In this document: positions 25,918-34,982 of the stretch, piece by piece | How positions within the stretch are numbered: position 1 is the first letter of the stretch | How the letters are laid out: every line of letters starts with the position of its first letter | Origin: Deltaproteobacteria bacterium | GTDB lineage: Bacteria > Desulfobacterota > DSM-4660 > Desulfatiglandales > Desulfatiglandaceae | DNA length: 38,432 nucleotides | Assembly (NCBI GenBank): GCA_029933075.1 | Contig: JAOZOW010000019.1 | Span: forward strand, 1-38,432 | Direction: 5' to 3' | Translations under genes and position numbers: made by a program | The notes under the pieces: model-generated | What the model was told of the DNA's origin: nothing | The model's database searches: none | Seen by the model: only the letters and a program-made list of their open reading frames with translations

Positions 25918-27315
25918 TTGGGGGGCGGTTTGGCAGGCGAGGAGAAGAAGGATAGGGCAGAGTCCAAGAAGCACGGGCTTACGGGGTGGCTCAAACTCAA
26001 GTTCCTGGGAGGCGGCAAGGAGGAGAGCCCCGTAGACAATAAGTTCCTGGATGATCTTTCGGATATTAAGACCATAGGTCGATACCAGATCATACGGAAA
26101 CTGGGCCAGGGCAGCATGGGCGTGGTCTATTTGGGGAAGGATCCTTATATCAACAGGGACGTGGGGATCAAGATTTCAAGACCTGCCTCCGACGTAGTAG
26201 GAGAGAAGGCCGACAAGTACCGTCAAAGTTTTTTTACAGAGGCACAGTCGGTGGGCCGGCTGGTTCACCCCAATATTGTTTCCATCTACGATGCCGGCAT
26301 GTACAAGGATTTCTGCTACATGACCATGGAATATATCGATGGCCCCACCCTCAAAAAGTTTTGCCATAAAGATTACCTGCTTCCCATTACCAATGTGGTT
26401 CAGGTAATGTTTATTGCATGCAAGGCCCTGGATTACGCCCACAGAAAAGGGGTGATCCACAGGGACATTAAGCCCTCCAACATAATGGTCAATAAGGCAG
26501 GGTATGTGAAGATCACGGATTTCGGCATTGCCAAAATCAAAACGGATCAGACTGCCTCTCAAGGCATTGTGGGGTCTCCCAGCTACATGTCCCCGGAACA
26601 GGTCAAAGACCAGCCGGTGGATGACAAAAGCGATATTTTTTCCTTAGGTTGCGTACTATATCAGCTCCTTACCGGCGAGCTGGCTTTTGCCGGGGAAAAC
26701 CATTTCTCCATCATGTACAAGATCGCGCGGGAAGATCCGGTCCCTATGCGGGAAATCCGCCCTGAAATCCCTGAAATCCTGGCCAAGATCACTCAGAAAG
26801 CCCTTGCAAAAGACCCCGTGGATCGGTATCAGACCTGCGCTGACTTCGCGTATGATCTGAGAGTGGCATTGAGGGGGTTGAAAGGGACCATTAAAACAAG
26901 CAAAGTGGAGGATATAATTGATTACATCCACAGTGTCCCTTTCTTTGAACATTTCAGCAGGGAGCAGGTGAAGGAGATATTGAAGGCCAGCAACCTTTTC
27001 AGGGTGAAGAAGGGGAAAGTCATTGTGGCAGAAGGGGAGATTGATGATTCATTCTACGTGCTGTTGAGTGGCAGGGCTTCTGTTAAGAAAAACGGCGGCC
27101 AGATTGCAGTAATCGGCCGGGGTGAATGCTTCGGGGAGATGGCTTTCCTGAGCGGTCAGGCCCGTGCAGCATCCGTGGTGGCGGAAACCGACTGCAACTT
27201 GATAAAGATCAGCGCCACCCTTCTTGACCGGGCCTCCCCGAAGATGCAGATACTTTTTTTAAAGACCTTTGCCATGACCCTGATTGGGCGTCTGTCCAAG
27301 AGCATTCAGAAATAA
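25918..27315 (+). CDS. Ser/Thr protein kinase fused to a cyclic-nucleotide-binding domain
   Basis: A 465-residue cytoplasmic protein with no membrane segment. A charged N-terminal stretch of about 54 residues is followed by a Hanks-type kinase domain (about 55-325): glycine loop GQGSMGVVY (63-71), Lys85 in VGIK, HRDIKPSN (181-188), DFG (201-203), SPE (225-227) and SDIFSLG. All catalytic residues are present. A Crp-type cyclic-nucleotide-binding domain fills about 340-460 (PFFEHFSREQVKEIL, VAEGEIDDSFYVLLSG, FGEMAF at 405-410, ARAAS with Arg416). The order kinase-then-sensor is opposite to eukaryotic PKG. The start is uncertain: TTG 25918, or TTG 25930, which is better placed after a G-rich stretch; there is no in-frame ATG. 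It converges on the carboxylase genes. Confidence 0.9.
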   Translation: MGGGLAGEEKKDRAESKKHGLTGWLKLKFLGGGKEESPVDNKFLDDLSDIKTIGRYQIIRKLGQGSMGVVYLGKDPYINRDVGIKISRPASDVVGEKADKYRQSFFTEAQSVGRLVHPNIVSIYDAGMYKDFCYMTMEYIDGPTLKKFCHKDYLLPITNVVQVMFIACKALDYAHRKGVIHRDIKPSNIMVNKAGYVKITDFGIAKIKTDQTASQGIVGSPSYMSPEQVKDQPVDDKSDIFSLGCVLYQLLTGELAFAGENHFSIMYKIAREDPVPMREIRPEIPEILAKITQKALAKDPVDRYQTCADFAYDLRVALRGLKGTIKTSKVEDIIDYIHSVPFFEHFSREQVKEILKASNLFRVKKGKVIVAEGEIDDSFYVLLSGRASVKKNGGQIAVIGRGECFGEMAFLSGQARAASVVAETDCNLIKISATLLDRASPKMQILFLKTFAMTLIGRLSKSIQK

Positions 27316-27331
27316 GATATGAGGCCTGTCC

Positions 27332-29368
27332 TCAATAAATGTCGTTGTCCCCACATGATCCATTCTTGAACCTCAGAAGTACGTCGTCAGATTCAACGGC
27401 CTGGCCAGGTGATACGAGCACTGCCTCTATCTCCCCGTCACGGGGGGAGGCAATGCTGGTCTGCATTTTCATGGACTCTATACGAAAGAGCTCCTGGCCT
27501 CTTCTTACATGTTCCCCTTCTGATACACGAACTTCAATCACCAGGCCGGGCATGGGACACTTGAGAAAAGCATCCGTTTTTTCCCTGGGACGCCTCAGCA
27601 TGAATTTGGCCAAATGCCATTCCTTAGGGGTGTATATCTCAAGGAGCCGGGTAATCCCGCAAAAGAAGGCCTGGATATGATTCTCCTGATATTTTAGACG
27701 GAACATGTGGGAGGTGCCGTCGATCGAGAGCTTTAACCGGCGTCGATAGAATTCAAATTCAGGCGTGGCGACCTGGTACAGCCTTTCATCCACAATGATA
27801 CGCCAGTGGCGCGCTGCCGAATCTCCCTCCAGGGATACGGGAAGAACGTCCTCCCCCACCTTCACTACATAACGCTGGGGCTTTCGGTGATCCACCGTGG
27901 TTCCAATCAGTGGAGACATGGGTACCAGGGAATCTCGAACCAGATTTTGCCGGCTGTGATAGACAAGCACGGCGGCCATAATCATGTAATCTATCTTCTC
28001 TTGTTCCGGCGGCCTCTTACTTCGTCCCTCCGAGAAGTGCTCATTGATGAAGTCTGTGGAGAGATCCCCGGCGGCAAAGGCGGGGTGATCCACTATGGCG
28101 TTCACAAAGTCCACATTGGTAGTCAGCCCCTCGATATGGTAGCCGTTGAGGGCTCGCACAAGCTCTCTTATCGCTTCTCCTCTATCATGGCCATGGGCGA
28201 TCACCTTGGAGACAAGGGAATCGTAATGGATTGTTACAGCGCTTCCGGCACCTACACCGTCGTCCACCCGGATATTCTTTCCCCGGGGCACGGCATAGCG
28301 GGTAACGAGCCCGGTGGTAGGAAAGAAGCCCCTGAGAGGGTCTTCCGCGCAGATGCGGGCTTCGATGGCCCAGCCTTTGAGATCAACTTCCTCCTGGCTG
28401 ACGGGCAGGGTTTCGCCTGCGGCTATGCGCAATTGCAACTCCACGAGATCTAATCCGGTGACCATCTCGGTGACCGGATGTTCCACCTGAAGACGAGTAT
28501 TCATCTCAAGAAAATAGAAATTCTTGGCAGGGTCCAGGATAAATTCAACTGTCCCGAGATTGGTGTATTCTGCCTCATGGGCCAACTTGCAGGCGAGTTG
28601 TCCCATTTTCTCCCTGAGGGCAGGGTCCAAGGCCGTCGACGGGCTCTCTTCTATGAGTTTCTGGTATCGACGCTGGATGGAACACTCCCTTTCTCCCAAG
28701 TGAACGATCTTTCCATGGTGGTCGGCAGCGATCTGAAATTCGATGTGCCTTGCTCCGGGGATATATCTTTCAATAAATATTCTATCGTCTCTGAACGCCT
28801 TCCTGGTTTCTTCCTGGCAGGCTGTGAACGCAGGCAAAAGCTCTTCCTCGGCAGATACGATCCGCATGCCACGTCCTCCGCCCCCAGATGCTGGTTTCAG
28901 AAGTATGGGGAAATTTATCTGTTTGGCGACTGCGAAGAGATGTTCAGGCGATTCCAAAGGCTTCGGATAGGCCGGGACCACGGGAAGGCCTGCTCGCTCG
29001 GCAAGGGCCTTGGAGGCTATTTTGTCTCCCAGAAGCGCGATAGCATCGGCAGAGGGCCCTATGAAGGCAAGCCCTGTGTCCTGTACAAGTCTTGCGAACT
29101 CCGCGTTTTCCGAAAGGAACCCGTATCCGGGGTGAACGGCTTCACAGGAATATTGAAGGGCGGCCTCCACGATTCTTTCCTTGAGTAGATAGGACTTAGC
29201 AGGTGATGCCGGTCCAATAAAAGCCGCTTCGTCGGCTTCTTCAACATAGGGGAGGCGAGAGTCAGCCTCGGAGTAGACGACGACGGTGCCGATCTCCATC
29301 CGTCGACATGTCCTGATTATTCGGAGCGCTATTTCACCCCTATTGGCAATTAAAATCTTTTGAAACAC
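27332..29368 (-). CDS. acyl-CoA carboxylase biotin carboxylase / biotin carrier subunit
   Basis: A 678-residue fusion of biotin carboxylase and biotin carrier, the alpha subunit of acetyl-, propionyl- or methylcrotonyl-CoA carboxylases. The biotin carboxylase part starts FQKILIANRGEIALRIIRT and has the ATP-grasp loop KPASGGGGRGMRIV, CSIQRRYQKLIEESPS and LEMNTRLQVEHPVTEMVTG. A linker of roughly 130 residues (about 470-600) probably contacts the carboxyltransferase subunit, and the C-terminal biotinyl domain has ESMKMQTS with biotinylated Lys634. Translation starts at GTG 29368 after GAGGTG, ten bases past the stop of the carboxyltransferase gene. Acyl-CoA substrate not determined; propionyl-CoA is the commonest for this arrangement. 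Confidence 0.92.
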   Translation of the reverse strand: MFQKILIANRGEIALRIIRTCRRMEIGTVVVYSEADSRLPYVEEADEAAFIGPASPAKSYLLKERIVEAALQYSCEAVHPGYGFLSENAEFARLVQDTGLAFIGPSADAIALLGDKIASKALAERAGLPVVPAYPKPLESPEHLFAVAKQINFPILLKPASGGGGRGMRIVSAEEELLPAFTACQEETRKAFRDDRIFIERYIPGARHIEFQIAADHHGKIVHLGERECSIQRRYQKLIEESPSTALDPALREKMGQLACKLAHEAEYTNLGTVEFILDPAKNFYFLEMNTRLQVEHPVTEMVTGLDLVELQLRIAAGETLPVSQEEVDLKGWAIEARICAEDPLRGFFPTTGLVTRYAVPRGKNIRVDDGVGAGSAVTIHYDSLVSKVIAHGHDRGEAIRELVRALNGYHIEGLTTNVDFVNAIVDHPAFAAGDLSTDFINEHFSEGRSKRPPEQEKIDYMIMAAVLVYHSRQNLVRDSLVPMSPLIGTTVDHRKPQRYVVKVGEDVLPVSLEGDSAARHWRIIVDERLYQVATPEFEFYRRRLKLSIDGTSHMFRLKYQENHIQAFFCGITRLLEIYTPKEWHLAKFMLRRPREKTDAFLKCPMPGLVIEVRVSEGEHVRRGQELFRIESMKMQTSIASPRDGEIEAVLVSPGQAVESDDVLLRFKNGSCGDNDIY

Positions 29369-29377
29369 TGTTTCACC

Positions 29378-30994
29378 TCACAAGGGGATGTTTCCATGCT
29401 TTCGCTTAGGTGTTTCAATCTCTTTGCCCTCAAGCACTTGAAGACTCCGGATAAGCCTGCCCCTGGTCTCACGCGGAAAGATGACATCGTCGATGTAGCC
29501 TCTTTTAGCGGCCAGGAAAGGATTTAAAAAGGTCTGCCGGTAGTCTTCCTCTTTTTCCGCGAGTGTGCGCTCGGGATCCTCTGATGACTGAATTTCCCTG
29601 CGATAAATGATTTCCGCCGCCCCTCTCGGCCCTAACACTGCAATTTCAGCTGTTGGCCATGCATAGTTGATATCCGCACCGATGTGCTTTGCATTCATAA
29701 CGAGATAGGCCCCGCCGTAAGCCTTCCTGACTATGACCGTAATCCGGGGCACGGTTGCTTCGATAAAGGCGAAGAGCAGCTTGGCCCCATGGCGAATGAT
29801 CCCCCCATGTTCCTGATCAGGTCCGGGCATAAATCCAGGGACATCCACGAAGCAGATGAGCGGGATGTTGAAATTGTCGCAGAACCGCACGAATCTCGCC
29901 CCTTTTACCGACGCATTGTTGTCGAGCACACCAGCCAGGATTGCGGGTTGATTGGCTATGAGCCCGATAGTTTGGCCTCCCAGCCGTCCAAACCCCACGA
30001 TAAGGTTGCGGGCATATTCCTTGTGGACTTCCAAGAATTCCGCTCCGTCCAACACGCTGTGAATCAGGACTTTCATGTCGTATGGCTGATCGGGTTTGAC
30101 AGGAACCAGATAATCCAGTGTAGGATCAATCCGGTCCGGAGGGTCCCTCAAATCCAGAAAAGGGGGCTTCTGCCGGTTGTTGGAAGGCAGGTAGTTGATC
30201 AATCGGCGCACTTCGCGCAGGCACAGGATGTCGTTGGGCAGGACGAAATGCGCTACACCGCTCTTTTGTGAGTGTACGGCCGCACCTCCCAGTTCCTGGG
30301 CGCTGATGTCCTGATGGATTACGGTTTTTACCACATGCGGGCCTGTGACAAACATGTAAGAGGATTGTTCAACCATGAAAGTAAAATCGGTCATTGAAGG
30401 ACTGTAGACCGCCCCGCCCGCGCACGGTCCCATTATGCAGGAGATTTGAGGGATCATCCCACTGGCTTTTACGTTCCTGTTGAATATCTCCCCGTAAGCT
30501 GCCAAGGCGTCAACCCCTTCCTGGATGCGAGCCCCACCCGAATCATTGATTCCAATGTAGGGGGCGCCTGTTCGCACAGCGTGGTCCATGACCTTGCTGA
30601 TTTTCTCGGAATGGGCTTCCCCCAGTGAGCCTCCCATGACGGTGAAATCCTGGCTGGAGACAAACACTTCCCTCCCATCAATGGTCCCGTGTCCGGTAAT
30701 GACGCCGTCGCTCAGGACCGCCCCCCCTCCTCCGATGTGCCCGCTCCTTCCGGCCTTCAACATGTCAAATTCCTCAAAGGAGCCTTCGTCAAGCAGGAGA
30801 TCGATCCGCTCCCGTGCCGTAAGTTTGCCCCTGGCATGCTGCTGTTCAATGCGGTTGCGGCCGCCGCCCTCTCTGGCTTCATCCCTCATGGCCTGGAGGG
30901 TACACAGGTTATCCTGCACGCTCTGAGGCTCCTGGTTTCCTTTGAAGCCCTTGTGGAGCCTCTTATATGGGTCGGTGAGGTTATCCTTTTTCAT
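29378..30994 (-). CDS. acyl-CoA carboxylase carboxyltransferase subunit (propionyl-CoA carboxylase beta type)
   Basis: A 538-residue carboxyltransferase with two crotonase-fold halves. RIEQQHARGKLTARERIDLLLD opens the first; GPCAGGAVYSPSMTDFTFMV is its oxyanion-hole segment; the second half contains PLICFVDVPGFMPGPDQEHGGIIRHGAKLL and KAYGGAYLVMNAKHIGAD. It moves CO2 from biotin to an acyl-CoA. ATG 30994 has AAGGAGA upstream and gives the usual length; an open frame runs 33 codons further without similarity. The biotin carboxylase/carrier gene follows after nine bases. It could instead serve as methylmalonyl-CoA decarboxylase alpha, but a linked biotin carboxylase points to an ATP-driven carboxylase. 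Confidence 0.92.
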   Translation of the reverse strand: MKKDNLTDPYKRLHKGFKGNQEPQSVQDNLCTLQAMRDEAREGGGRNRIEQQHARGKLTARERIDLLLDEGSFEEFDMLKAGRSGHIGGGGAVLSDGVITGHGTIDGREVFVSSQDFTVMGGSLGEAHSEKISKVMDHAVRTGAPYIGINDSGGARIQEGVDALAAYGEIFNRNVKASGMIPQISCIMGPCAGGAVYSPSMTDFTFMVEQSSYMFVTGPHVVKTVIHQDISAQELGGAAVHSQKSGVAHFVLPNDILCLREVRRLINYLPSNNRQKPPFLDLRDPPDRIDPTLDYLVPVKPDQPYDMKVLIHSVLDGAEFLEVHKEYARNLIVGFGRLGGQTIGLIANQPAILAGVLDNNASVKGARFVRFCDNFNIPLICFVDVPGFMPGPDQEHGGIIRHGAKLLFAFIEATVPRITVIVRKAYGGAYLVMNAKHIGADINYAWPTAEIAVLGPRGAAEIIYRREIQSSEDPERTLAEKEEDYRQTFLNPFLAAKRGYIDDVIFPRETRGRLIRSLQVLEGKEIETPKRKHGNIPL

Positions 30995-31143
30995 GAGTTC
31001 TCCTTCATCTAATGGAACAATACTTTTCTTCCCTAACACTCTGTCGGGGCGAAACCGGGCGTTGCTATCAAAGAAAAACTGAATCTGCTTCATTGAAAGG
31101 AAATTATTATGAGGGATCAGCCTTCCATGTCAAGCGAAAGCCT

Positions 31144-32402: not shown

Positions 32403-34982
32403 TTACGAAGCCTCAATTCGGTCCCTGATATCGGAGTAGAGACTGTCCAGCCTGAGGATATGTCTGAAAAGAGACAGACAGATGAAACCCATTAGGCGAA
32501 AGGCAAGGTCGGAGCCGGATTCGATGAATCGGTTGAATGCCTCTTTGCTTATAAATGCTGTCTTGCAGGGCGTCCGTGCCACAACGCTTGCAGACCTGGG
32601 CTTGTCATCGATCAGGGACATTTCACCGAAGATATCTCCCTCGGCCAGTTCCCCGAGAAGTACTTCCTCTGAGTCGTGGGCCAGGCCCACCACCTCCACA
32701 TCTCCTTCCATTATGAAATATGCGCCGTCGGCCCGGTCGCCTTCGGAAAAGATTTTTTGCCCTGGCCGGAATTTTTTGATTTCCTGGTAAAGTATGTTCC
32801 TGTCTTTTTCGGAGAGGGTGGGCAAGAAATCCGCTTTCTCCCGCCTGAGCTCAAATCGTATTCGGTCAATATCGGGTAGTTTCATCTCAGTGCCTTCAAA
32901 GATTAGAGAGAGGGAGCGAATGGCGGTCTTATATTTGTCGTTCAGGTTTCTGAGCCTCTGAGGGAGTATGCTGAAAAGGCGGTAAATGAGGTCGCGGGCA
33001 TAGGGCTGGCCTCCCTTGAACAGCATTTCCAGGCCGGAGCGATTCAGTATGCCCACTTTCGCCCTTACACTGGAAACCGTAATGGTCGCCGACTTGGGGA
33101 TATTGTAAAAAAGGCTCATCTCACCGAAAATCTCACCTGGGCCGAGAGAGGCCAGTGCCGTCCCGTCAACATAAACGCCCACCTCGCCTTCTTTCAGATA
33201 GTACATTTCCTGATCGGTGCTACCCTGTTCGCAAATTACGTCATCTTTGAGGTAGGTTCTCTCCCGGCTGAATATCTGATTCAGGTGCTCGTTGCTGATT
33301 GTGCCGAACAGAGCCCCGCTTATATTGTGGCATATGAGATCAAGCTCACTTTTCTGGATTGCGCCCGACTCTATCTGCACGGGCAGAAGTAGATCATCGA
33401 TATACCGGGTAAGGTCGGACTTGACCTTTTGAGGCATCTTCATGAACTCCTGGGAGATACGTTTTGCCTCGTCCACGGAGAGCTGCTTTTTTTCCTGAAT
33501 TTTCCTGTAGACCAAATATTCCCTGAGCGCGCCTATTCCTCCGATCCCTGCCAGGAACTGGTAGGCGGGCGTGTTTGCGATGTGAGGCTCTATGAGTGAC
33601 CCGGTGCCGGCAGTGGATATGGCTTCTTTTCCTTGGTTCATATAATCATGGTAGGTTTTGTCGAGGGGAAAGCTTTGGGCTTCCTCTATGGTGGCAATAT
33701 CTTCCGGGGTTAGGGGTTGAATCTGCTCCGCCACCACGTCGATGCGGTGGCCGAGGCTCCTGAGGAGCTTTATAATGACGGCATTGTTGATCCCCCTGCC
33801 CGATATGTTGCTATGGACATCGGCACTATAGGCCGGCGGGCTAAAGAGGAGGTTGCCATAGTTGTCCGTAGCATGGACCCGGAGGAATACCCCCTTGTCC
33901 AGGCACCATTTTCCCACTCGCTCTGCTCCCACGAGGGGATCATCCCCCTCTATGTTCAGATGTCCCACATCGAGGGTCACACCAAAATTCTTTTCTCTGA
34001 CTTCCCTGTCGAGCAGTTGGTAAATGTCCTCCAGCGCAGCAACGAATTGCTCCGCCCTCTGTACACACCCTATTTGGCAATAATTTTCGATTGTAGCACG
34101 TACATGGCTCCCGCCCGCACTTTCTATGAGCCTGGCCATAGCCTTGGGATTGGATGCGTCGATCAGGTGGTATACTACCGACCCTGCCCCAATCTCCTTT
34201 GCCAGCTCAATGGTCTCTATCTGGACATCCATGCACTCTGTGGGGTTGAAGAACCGCTGGGCGCCTTTTGACGGATCAGGTGAGGGGCAATAGGGCCCTA
34301 CAATGGGGGAGTGTATATCGATCTTGATCCCCGTCCTGATCCGGGCCTCGTTGATCTGCCGTCGTTTTTCCTCTGAAAGCTCTTCTGGAAGAAGCTTTGC
34401 GTAATTGAAAGGGTGAAAATCCACGCACAATTCAAGGCCTTCGAGCCCTTCTCTGAGCACTTTTTCGATCAAATAAAGGGGGTCAATGATTTTTCTTTCC
34501 CAGAAAGTCGTGGCCAGGAGGGGGCTGGGATTTATGACAGGAGCCCAGGTTTGGAAGGGGGCTTGGGTTTTGAGGAGATTGGCTTCATATTGCATTGCGA
34601 ATTCCAGGATAAGGGCATCTCTAAGATCAGCATTCTCATCCCCGTAGAAGACAAAATAGGGTGCGTGATCGTAGATCCAGCAGCATTTTATGAGGAAGAA
34701 AGGGGAGCGGGTGAGCTTTCCAAGGGGTGAGCCGTGCGTCTCTTTTTTGGACAGTTCCAGGATGTGGGAGATGCTTGAGACCCGGAGTTCGTATCCGTAC
34801 TTGGCCTTTGATTTGTGTCGTGCTAACAGCATCAGTGCCGCATCCGGATCGAAACCCAATCGGTCAAGGTCTTTTTTGCTGCGGCTGGAAAAGAAATCTT
34901 TTTCTCTGAGGCTCTCTTCCAGCACCTTGGCGACGGCGTCTACATCTGTACGGGATTCTGCTTTTTCAGTGTCGTTTACCAA
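32403..34982 (-). CDS. TIM-barrel (endonuclease IV / xylose isomerase-like) protein with two C-terminal cyclic-nucleotide-binding domains
   Basis: An 859-residue multidomain protein. Residues 1-160 I do not recognise. About 165-435 read as an AP-endonuclease-2-type TIM barrel (sugar isomerase/epimerase, endonuclease IV fold) with a full set of likely metal ligands: His224 (KIDIHSPIVG), His272, Glu299 (ATIEN), Asp338 and His341 (LDVGH), His370 and Asp373 (HATDN) and Glu419 (VVAEQ). A helical linker (440-550) follows. Two Crp-type cyclic-nucleotide-binding domains are at about 555-670 (EIFGEMSLFYNIPKSAT) and 715-835 (DIFGEMSLIDDKPRSAS). The second keeps the phosphate-binding arginine (Arg796); the first has Lys630. 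There is no DNA-binding domain and no membrane segment. Start TTG 34982 after GAAGGTG. Substrate unknown: a sugar or polyol, or abasic DNA, are possible. Confidence 0.85.
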   Translation of the reverse strand: MVNDTEKAESRTDVDAVAKVLEESLREKDFFSSRSKKDLDRLGFDPDAALMLLARHKSKAKYGYELRVSSISHILELSKKETHGSPLGKLTRSPFFLIKCCWIYDHAPYFVFYGDENADLRDALILEFAMQYEANLLKTQAPFQTWAPVINPSPLLATTFWERKIIDPLYLIEKVLREGLEGLELCVDFHPFNYAKLLPEELSEEKRRQINEARIRTGIKIDIHSPIVGPYCPSPDPSKGAQRFFNPTECMDVQIETIELAKEIGAGSVVYHLIDASNPKAMARLIESAGGSHVRATIENYCQIGCVQRAEQFVAALEDIYQLLDREVREKNFGVTLDVGHLNIEGDDPLVGAERVGKWCLDKGVFLRVHATDNYGNLLFSPPAYSADVHSNISGRGINNAVIIKLLRSLGHRIDVVAEQIQPLTPEDIATIEEAQSFPLDKTYHDYMNQGKEAISTAGTGSLIEPHIANTPAYQFLAGIGGIGALREYLVYRKIQEKKQLSVDEAKRISQEFMKMPQKVKSDLTRYIDDLLLPVQIESGAIQKSELDLICHNISGALFGTISNEHLNQIFSRERTYLKDDVICEQGSTDQEMYYLKEGEVGVYVDGTALASLGPGEIFGEMSLFYNIPKSATITVSSVRAKVGILNRSGLEMLFKGGQPYARDLIYRLFSILPQRLRNLNDKYKTAIRSLSLIFEGTEMKLPDIDRIRFELRREKADFLPTLSEKDRNILYQEIKKFRPGQKIFSEGDRADGAYFIMEGDVEVVGLAHDSEEVLLGELAEGDIFGEMSLIDDKPRSASVVARTPCKTAFISKEAFNRFIESGSDLAFRLMGFICLSLFRHILRLDSLYSDIRDRIEAS

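Follow-up and report, generated by a model that had tools for sequence, protein, structure and literature searches.

Which enzyme activity, and which signal, are joined when a single bacterial chain carries a TIM barrel and two cyclic-nucleotide-binding (CNB) domains? This question is raised by a gene in a 38,432-nucleotide stretch of DNA from a Deltaproteobacteria bacterium, which we call the window. To our knowledge, the direct targets of class III cyclase products in the Desulfobacterota-type group are largely not known. An enzyme that is conserved and carries its own tandem sensors would offer a direct, testable cyclic-nucleotide target that does not work through transcription. We suggest that the product of this gene, here called the barrel-CNB protein, may be a soluble cyclic-nucleotide-gated metallohydrolase that probably acts on a small-molecule phosphoester, a reading to which we assign a probability of roughly 0.45. 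The gene and its parts are as follows.

32403..34982, minus strand: whole barrel-CNB gene, 859 codons, TTG start, stand-alone
34572..34943, minus strand: N-terminal all-helical domain, residues 14-137, conserved in the family and predicted to be helical
33669..34526, minus strand: TIM barrel, residues 153-438, from Pfam, profile comparison and structure model
33288..33662, minus strand: helical linker, residues 441-565, from sequence conservation among homologues and the model
33018..33260, minus strand: CNB domain 1, cassette GEMSLFYNIPKSAT, with Lys where 23 of 26 homologues have Arg
32520..32777, minus strand: CNB domain 2, cassette GEMSLIDDKPRSAS, canonical, with Glu787 and Arg796 invariant
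32409..32510, minus strand: long C-terminal helix, residues 825-858, from structure prediction

The gene and its domain organization

A preliminary description, made from the sequence alone, had proposed a single 859-residue frame with an unrecognised N-terminal region, an endonuclease IV/sugar-isomerase-like TIM barrel and two Crp-type sensor domains, and had recommended a domain search, structure prediction and a survey of other genomes and of neighbouring genes. The frame exists, on the minus strand (34982..32403), and many stops interrupt the plus strand across the same positions. A purine-rich AAGAAGG lies upstream of the TTG start, which is credible because the homologues begin with Met at the same place. 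The gene is separated by 142 bp from the upstream gene and by about 340 bp from the downstream gene, and a scan for its promoter and terminator gave nothing better than shuffled sequences. Over about 858 codons, differences from four homologues number about 540 at third, 230 at first and 155 at second positions, with third-position changes more than twice as many as first-position and more than three times as many as second-position changes. A chance frame is excluded, since other genomes encode relatives that match it in length and layout and the differences are mostly at third positions. The barrel-CNB gene is a real, selected gene under purifying selection.

The domain layout also holds. 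HMM searches over the 859 residues assigned one PF01261 domain and two PF00027 domains, all above their cut-offs, in the order helical N-terminal domain, TIM barrel, conserved helical linker and two CNB domains. As had been stated, the N-terminal region is unrecognised: Pfam has no model that reaches E<=1 over residues 1-170 or over the linker. The N-terminal domain is helical, and its invariant residues include K99, W102, H106 and P108. The linker is strongly conserved in sequence (REYLxYRKIQ, YIDDLL) and has low confidence in the full-length model, so that no coupling route is visible in it. The predicted C-terminal helix takes the position of the C-helix of CRP-type sensors.

The barrel and its relatives

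The PF01261 match covers residues 173-422 with 39.1 bits against a cut-off of 31.1 in Pfam, and reaches 42.4 bits in the genome search. Two motifs mark the family, DFHPFNY (188-194) and HSPIVGPY (224-231). Since a fold search with the full-length model was swamped by CNB matches, a second model was made of residues 14-498 (pLDDT 85.6, pTM 0.87), and it contains eight barrel strands. Foldseek places it among PDB structures of the xylose-isomerase/endonuclease IV superfamily, with UlaE, ketose 3-epimerases, xylose isomerases and endonuclease IV, including the M. tuberculosis enzyme, as the best matches. Epimerases and isomerases make up most of the nearest folds.

Profile comparisons place the barrel near the MJ1311/CbiR-type subfamily. 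It aligns with a set of MJ1311-like proteins of the host group (hhalign 97.8%, E 1.2e-12), a set whose best PDB match is MJ1311 and which in turn aligns with endonuclease IV (Nfo; hhalign 97.8%, E 7e-13). When the family profile of the N-terminal and barrel part was compared with PDB sequences, the sole barrel match was MJ1311 (3wqo), and this was weak (E 0.2). In NCBIfam the only barrel-matching family is CbiR (NF041277), at 23.8 bits against an equivalog cut-off of 105. We rejected CbiR as the identity of the barrel, since the score is far under the cut-off and no cobamide genes lie beside the gene; none were found among the neighbours sampled in the window and the other loci.

Endonuclease IV itself was also rejected. 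The barrel has no significant profile match to the Nfo of the host group (hhalign probability 1.3%), and the segments HxxYLIN and FTRN/W, invariant in Nfo, are replaced by HSPIVGPY and DFHPFNY. The host has its own Nfo above the TIGR00587 cut-off; within its genome this model matches only C20 and C113, and the barrel-CNB protein is not among them. For these reasons abasic DNA, named in the preliminary description as a possible substrate, is not supported.

Metal-ligand positions

The mapping of metal ligands combines two alignments, of the barrel with the MJ1311-like set and of that set with Nfo. The equivalents of the nine established metal ligands of endonuclease IV are H224, H272, E299, D338, H341, H370, D388, H390 and E419, and none of these residues varies among 26 homologues. 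Also invariant are E184, D188 and H190 on strand 2, which may be contacts to the substrate or to an extra metal. Eight ligands had been listed previously. All eight are invariant and seven belong to the nine, but D373 is not at an endonuclease IV ligand position, and the invariant D388 and H390 had been missed. In two models the ligands lie where barrel strands (220-224, 268-272, 295-299, 333-338, 366-371 and 415-418) end on their C-terminal side, or directly beyond. The loop after strand 7 that carries D388 and H390 is modelled poorly (residues 373-398, pLDDT <50), so its closure over the metal site is our inference. The ligand set does not by itself prove hydrolysis, because MJ1311-like proteins share it in full.

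The sensor domains and cyclases

The two PF00027 domains together score 141.9 bits (E 6e-42), with single domains at 92.6 and 58.7 bits. The best PDB matches of this part, by sequence and by fold, are the tandem regulatory CNBs of PKA and PKG. The Glu of the phosphate-binding cassette is conserved in 26/26 sequences in both domains, and the cassette Arg in 26/26 in the second domain and 23/26 in the first, where Lys is found in the window and in the public loci L018 and L019 and Arg in the others. Ser at the next residue is CRP-like and Thr is PKG-like. Here it is mostly Ser or Thr, and this mix does not tell cAMP from cGMP. In PKA, affinity drops about ten-fold when Lys replaces the cassette Arg (PMC2246266). 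By analogy, the Lys in the first CNB domain of the window should weaken nucleotide binding.

Cyclases that could supply the signal are abundant. In the genome of the window (G000, 3.0 Mb), 11 class III cyclase domains were counted alongside 13 CNB-domain matches, and each of 23 other carriers (23/23) has at least two class III cyclases. This co-occurrence is uninformative, because cyclases are present in 59 of 61 relatives whether or not they carry the barrel-CNB gene, with more than 20 and up to two dozen in some genomes.

Gene neighbourhood

In the window, the genes upstream on the same strand encode an SDR, DUF6125, a PaaK-like AMP-binding enzyme and an ACT protein. Downstream are DUF3786 and then a biotin-dependent acyl-CoA carboxylase pair, with a kinase gene beyond it.

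27332-31093, minus strand: acyl-CoA carboxylase pair, a 678-aa biotin carboxylase that includes a biotinyl domain and a 571-aa carboxyltransferase
25918..27315, plus strand: Ser/Thr protein kinase with one C-terminal CNB domain

In the window 5 kb separate the kinase-CNB and barrel-CNB genes, and in L018 and L019 the two genes converge directly; the carboxylase pair that lies between them in the window is missing at this place in L018 and L019. The kinase-CNB copies in these two loci are 80% identical to the kinase-CNB protein of the window, a higher figure than the 62-64% of the barrel-CNB protein. It is possible that the kinase-CNB protein is a functional partner. Elsewhere, a calcineurin-like gene is near the homologue in L026 and L025, and a 5'-nucleotidase is a neighbour in L025/L040. 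In L026, a gene that joins a CNB to a GGDEF diguanylate cyclase domain (1452-2840) lies 1.5 kb upstream of the homologue. In the L031-L037 clade, an S26-type signal peptidase and a NusG-like factor border the gene, and a MocA/hexapeptide gene comes next; some of these loci also have a PilM-type pilus gene on the upstream side. MocA/hexapeptide genes are typical of polysaccharide clusters. A cyclase profile match was found at 1 of 30 loci, 2.1 kb from the gene in L041, and none in the window. Tabulating the neighbours across loci, as had been recommended, gives a variable picture that names no pathway. This is because shared neighbours are confined to close relatives, as with the kinase-CNB gene in the window, L018 and L019. 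A function based on an operon was rejected, since other clades have unrelated neighbours.

Proposed function and alternatives

We favor hydrolysis of a small-molecule phosphoester because the full hydrolase-type ligand set is present and because, among characterised proteins, family models put CbiR nearest. This phosphodiesterase of the same superfamily is sensitive to EDTA (PMC7733943). In Bd1971 of Bdellovibrio, a CNB sensor is joined to an EAL barrel phosphodiesterase that is switched on by cAMP (PMC6717892). In the working model, the class III cyclases of the host would produce cAMP or cGMP, which the tandem CNBs would bind. Binding would move the C-terminal and inter-domain helices, and the conserved linker and N-terminal helices would relay the state of the CNBs to the barrel. 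There, an endonuclease IV-type site with two or three metals would hydrolyse the phosphoester. Thus a cAMP-like signal probably switches the barrel enzyme. Allosteric control, which the preliminary description had read from the CNBs, is the natural interpretation of a fused barrel in which catalytic and sensor residues are both conserved. An endonuclease IV-type metallohydrolase gated by two CNBs could represent a kind of second-messenger effector not described before, whose substrate might itself be a nucleotide signal, though we regard this wider proposal as tentative and somewhat unlikely.

The main rival is a cyclic-nucleotide-gated isomerase or epimerase for sugars or sugar phosphates, which would move a proton or a hydride with the help of one or two metals. 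The top fold matches (D-psicose/tagatose 3-epimerases, UlaE and xylose isomerases) are of this kind, the Pfam model describes a xylose-isomerase-like barrel, and the polysaccharide-type MocA/hexapeptide gene adjoins one clade. The metal positions E299, D338, H370 and E419 would fit either chemistry. However, the further hydrolase-type ligands H224, H272, D388 and H390 are invariant as well, the sole NCBIfam match of the barrel is CbiR and no epimerase model, and sugar-catabolic genes are not consistently found in the neighbourhoods. We judge an isomerase unlikely, while giving it real weight. A barrel without catalysis, serving as a regulatory binding domain in a scaffold that reports cyclic nucleotide together with a metabolite, would suit a stand-alone gene of patchy distribution with no nameable substrate or pathway. 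Yet a dead barrel would not need nine invariant ligand positions, and E184, D188 and H190 are likewise invariant in 26 homologues; a scaffold of this kind is therefore quite improbable.

The same hydrolase-type metal site, found in one protein with two nucleotide sensors, might instead degrade a cyclic nucleotide or another nucleotide second messenger at a rate set by the CNBs. Bd1971, which pairs a CNB with a second-messenger phosphodiesterase barrel, lends this feedback some plausibility, as do the few neighbours linked to second messengers or phosphoesters (the CNB-GGDEF gene in L026 and the calcineurin-like genes in L026 and L025). But these neighbours are anecdotal, the cyclases are unlinked to the gene except in L041, and we know of no PF01261 protein that hydrolyses a cyclic nucleotide, so feedback of this type is improbable. 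A signalling AP endonuclease, or another DNA-repair nuclease gated by cyclic nucleotide, would account for the presence of every endonuclease IV ligand position, but the lack of a significant Nfo profile match, the replaced segments and the Nfo already present in the host make it very improbable. We give hardly any weight to an anti-phage effector of the Pycsar type, in which a cyclase makes cCMP or cUMP and a CNB-bearing effector kills the cell. PADLOC Pycsar models do match, but only the CNB parts. Cyclases are missing from the surroundings of the gene, both in the window and in the flanks examined at 28 of 29 public loci, there is no TIR or membrane effector domain, and the spread looks vertical within one group, with no defence-island context. 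A defence role was rejected, as the PADLOC matches rest on the CNBs and come with no linked cyclase.

Comparison with known systems

Our searches of the open-access literature agree with the earlier statement that no protein of this layout has been described: they found no published description of a barrel with two CNBs, and no papers on MJ1311 or naming both domain types. The text of a 2007 survey of 30 CNB families names no endonuclease- or isomerase-type partner. As far as this text and the open-access literature show, each domain is known and the combination is undescribed. The MJ1311-like or COG1082-type 'sugar phosphate isomerase/epimerase' proteins (PF01261), including the host paralogue L002, share the barrel and the nine ligand positions. 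They are single-domain proteins of 250-310 aa whose function is not known, whereas the barrel-CNB protein adds the N-terminal helical domain, the linker and two CNBs, and has DFHPFNY and HSPIVGPY as private motifs. CbiR, which remodels cobamides, shares the superfamily and the conserved His/Asp/Glu metal residues but has no CNB domains. In endonuclease IV the metal-ligand positions follow in the same order along the barrel; the barrel-CNB protein differs by its fused sensors and by lacking a direct profile match and the DNA-contact segments. With PKA and PKG it shares the CNB-A/CNB-B layout and canonical cassettes, but its CNBs are in one chain with a PF01261 barrel and no protein kinase. Bd1971 is the nearest described analogue in logic, likewise a CNB sensor and a TIM-barrel enzyme in one bacterial chain. 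However, its EAL c-di-GMP phosphodiesterase belongs to another barrel family, and its one CNB is N-terminal while the two here are C-terminal.

We regard the barrel-CNB protein as a new type of CNB-controlled enzyme, with which the PF01261 superfamily would join the enzyme types under CNB control. If the wider proposal of a second-messenger effector class is correct, Desulfobacterota-type anaerobes would use such proteins to let cAMP or cGMP control metabolism or signalling directly, with no transcriptional step.

Distribution of the family

The barrel-CNB protein is encoded in 10 of 61 genomes (the own genome and its relatives), and all but one copy are intact, at about 860-890 aa. The same architecture is also found more widely: a scan of 84,980 species, which used exact peptides and could have missed more distant members, gave 29 public loci with relatives, 25 of them with full-length frames. 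Among the others, L039 ends with its contig, L041 is N-masked and L037 has a stop; the frame of L045 is split between the first and second CNB. By their titles, the carriers are mostly Desulfobacterales, Syntrophales and 'Deltaproteobacteria' MAGs, with one named Smithella. We conclude that they are mostly uncultured sulfate-reducer-type and syntrophic bacteria, about 29 in number. In a sample across the phylum of the window, 4 of 395 genomes have the family.

The fusion is kept across 26 full-length homologues, down to 40% identity. In 85 genomes of the same class, a barrel-only profile gave 13 matches, all below 1e-146 and 11 of them in full-length frames, and nothing between 1e-146 and the limit of 1e-5. 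Since no stand-alone form of the subfamily barrel was seen in these genomes, the fusion appears, on this sequence evidence, to predate the spread of the family. A viral origin was rejected, as IMG/VR and phage records contain no copies of the protein; the best plasmid matches cover the CNB part only.

Two members stand apart. L038 is the only one titled outside the Desulfobacterota, Deltaproteobacteria and Pseudomonadota labels; it is titled Lentisphaerae, and its bin of 14.1 Mb is unusually large. Its protein nests in the clade of the window on a long branch, and among 289 genomes of its phylum the family occurs in L038 itself alone. Transfer, or mis-binning or contamination, is the likely explanation. 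The homologue in L042 (1232-4117) is 962 aa long, either because its N-terminus is extended by about 100 residues or because its start is mis-called.
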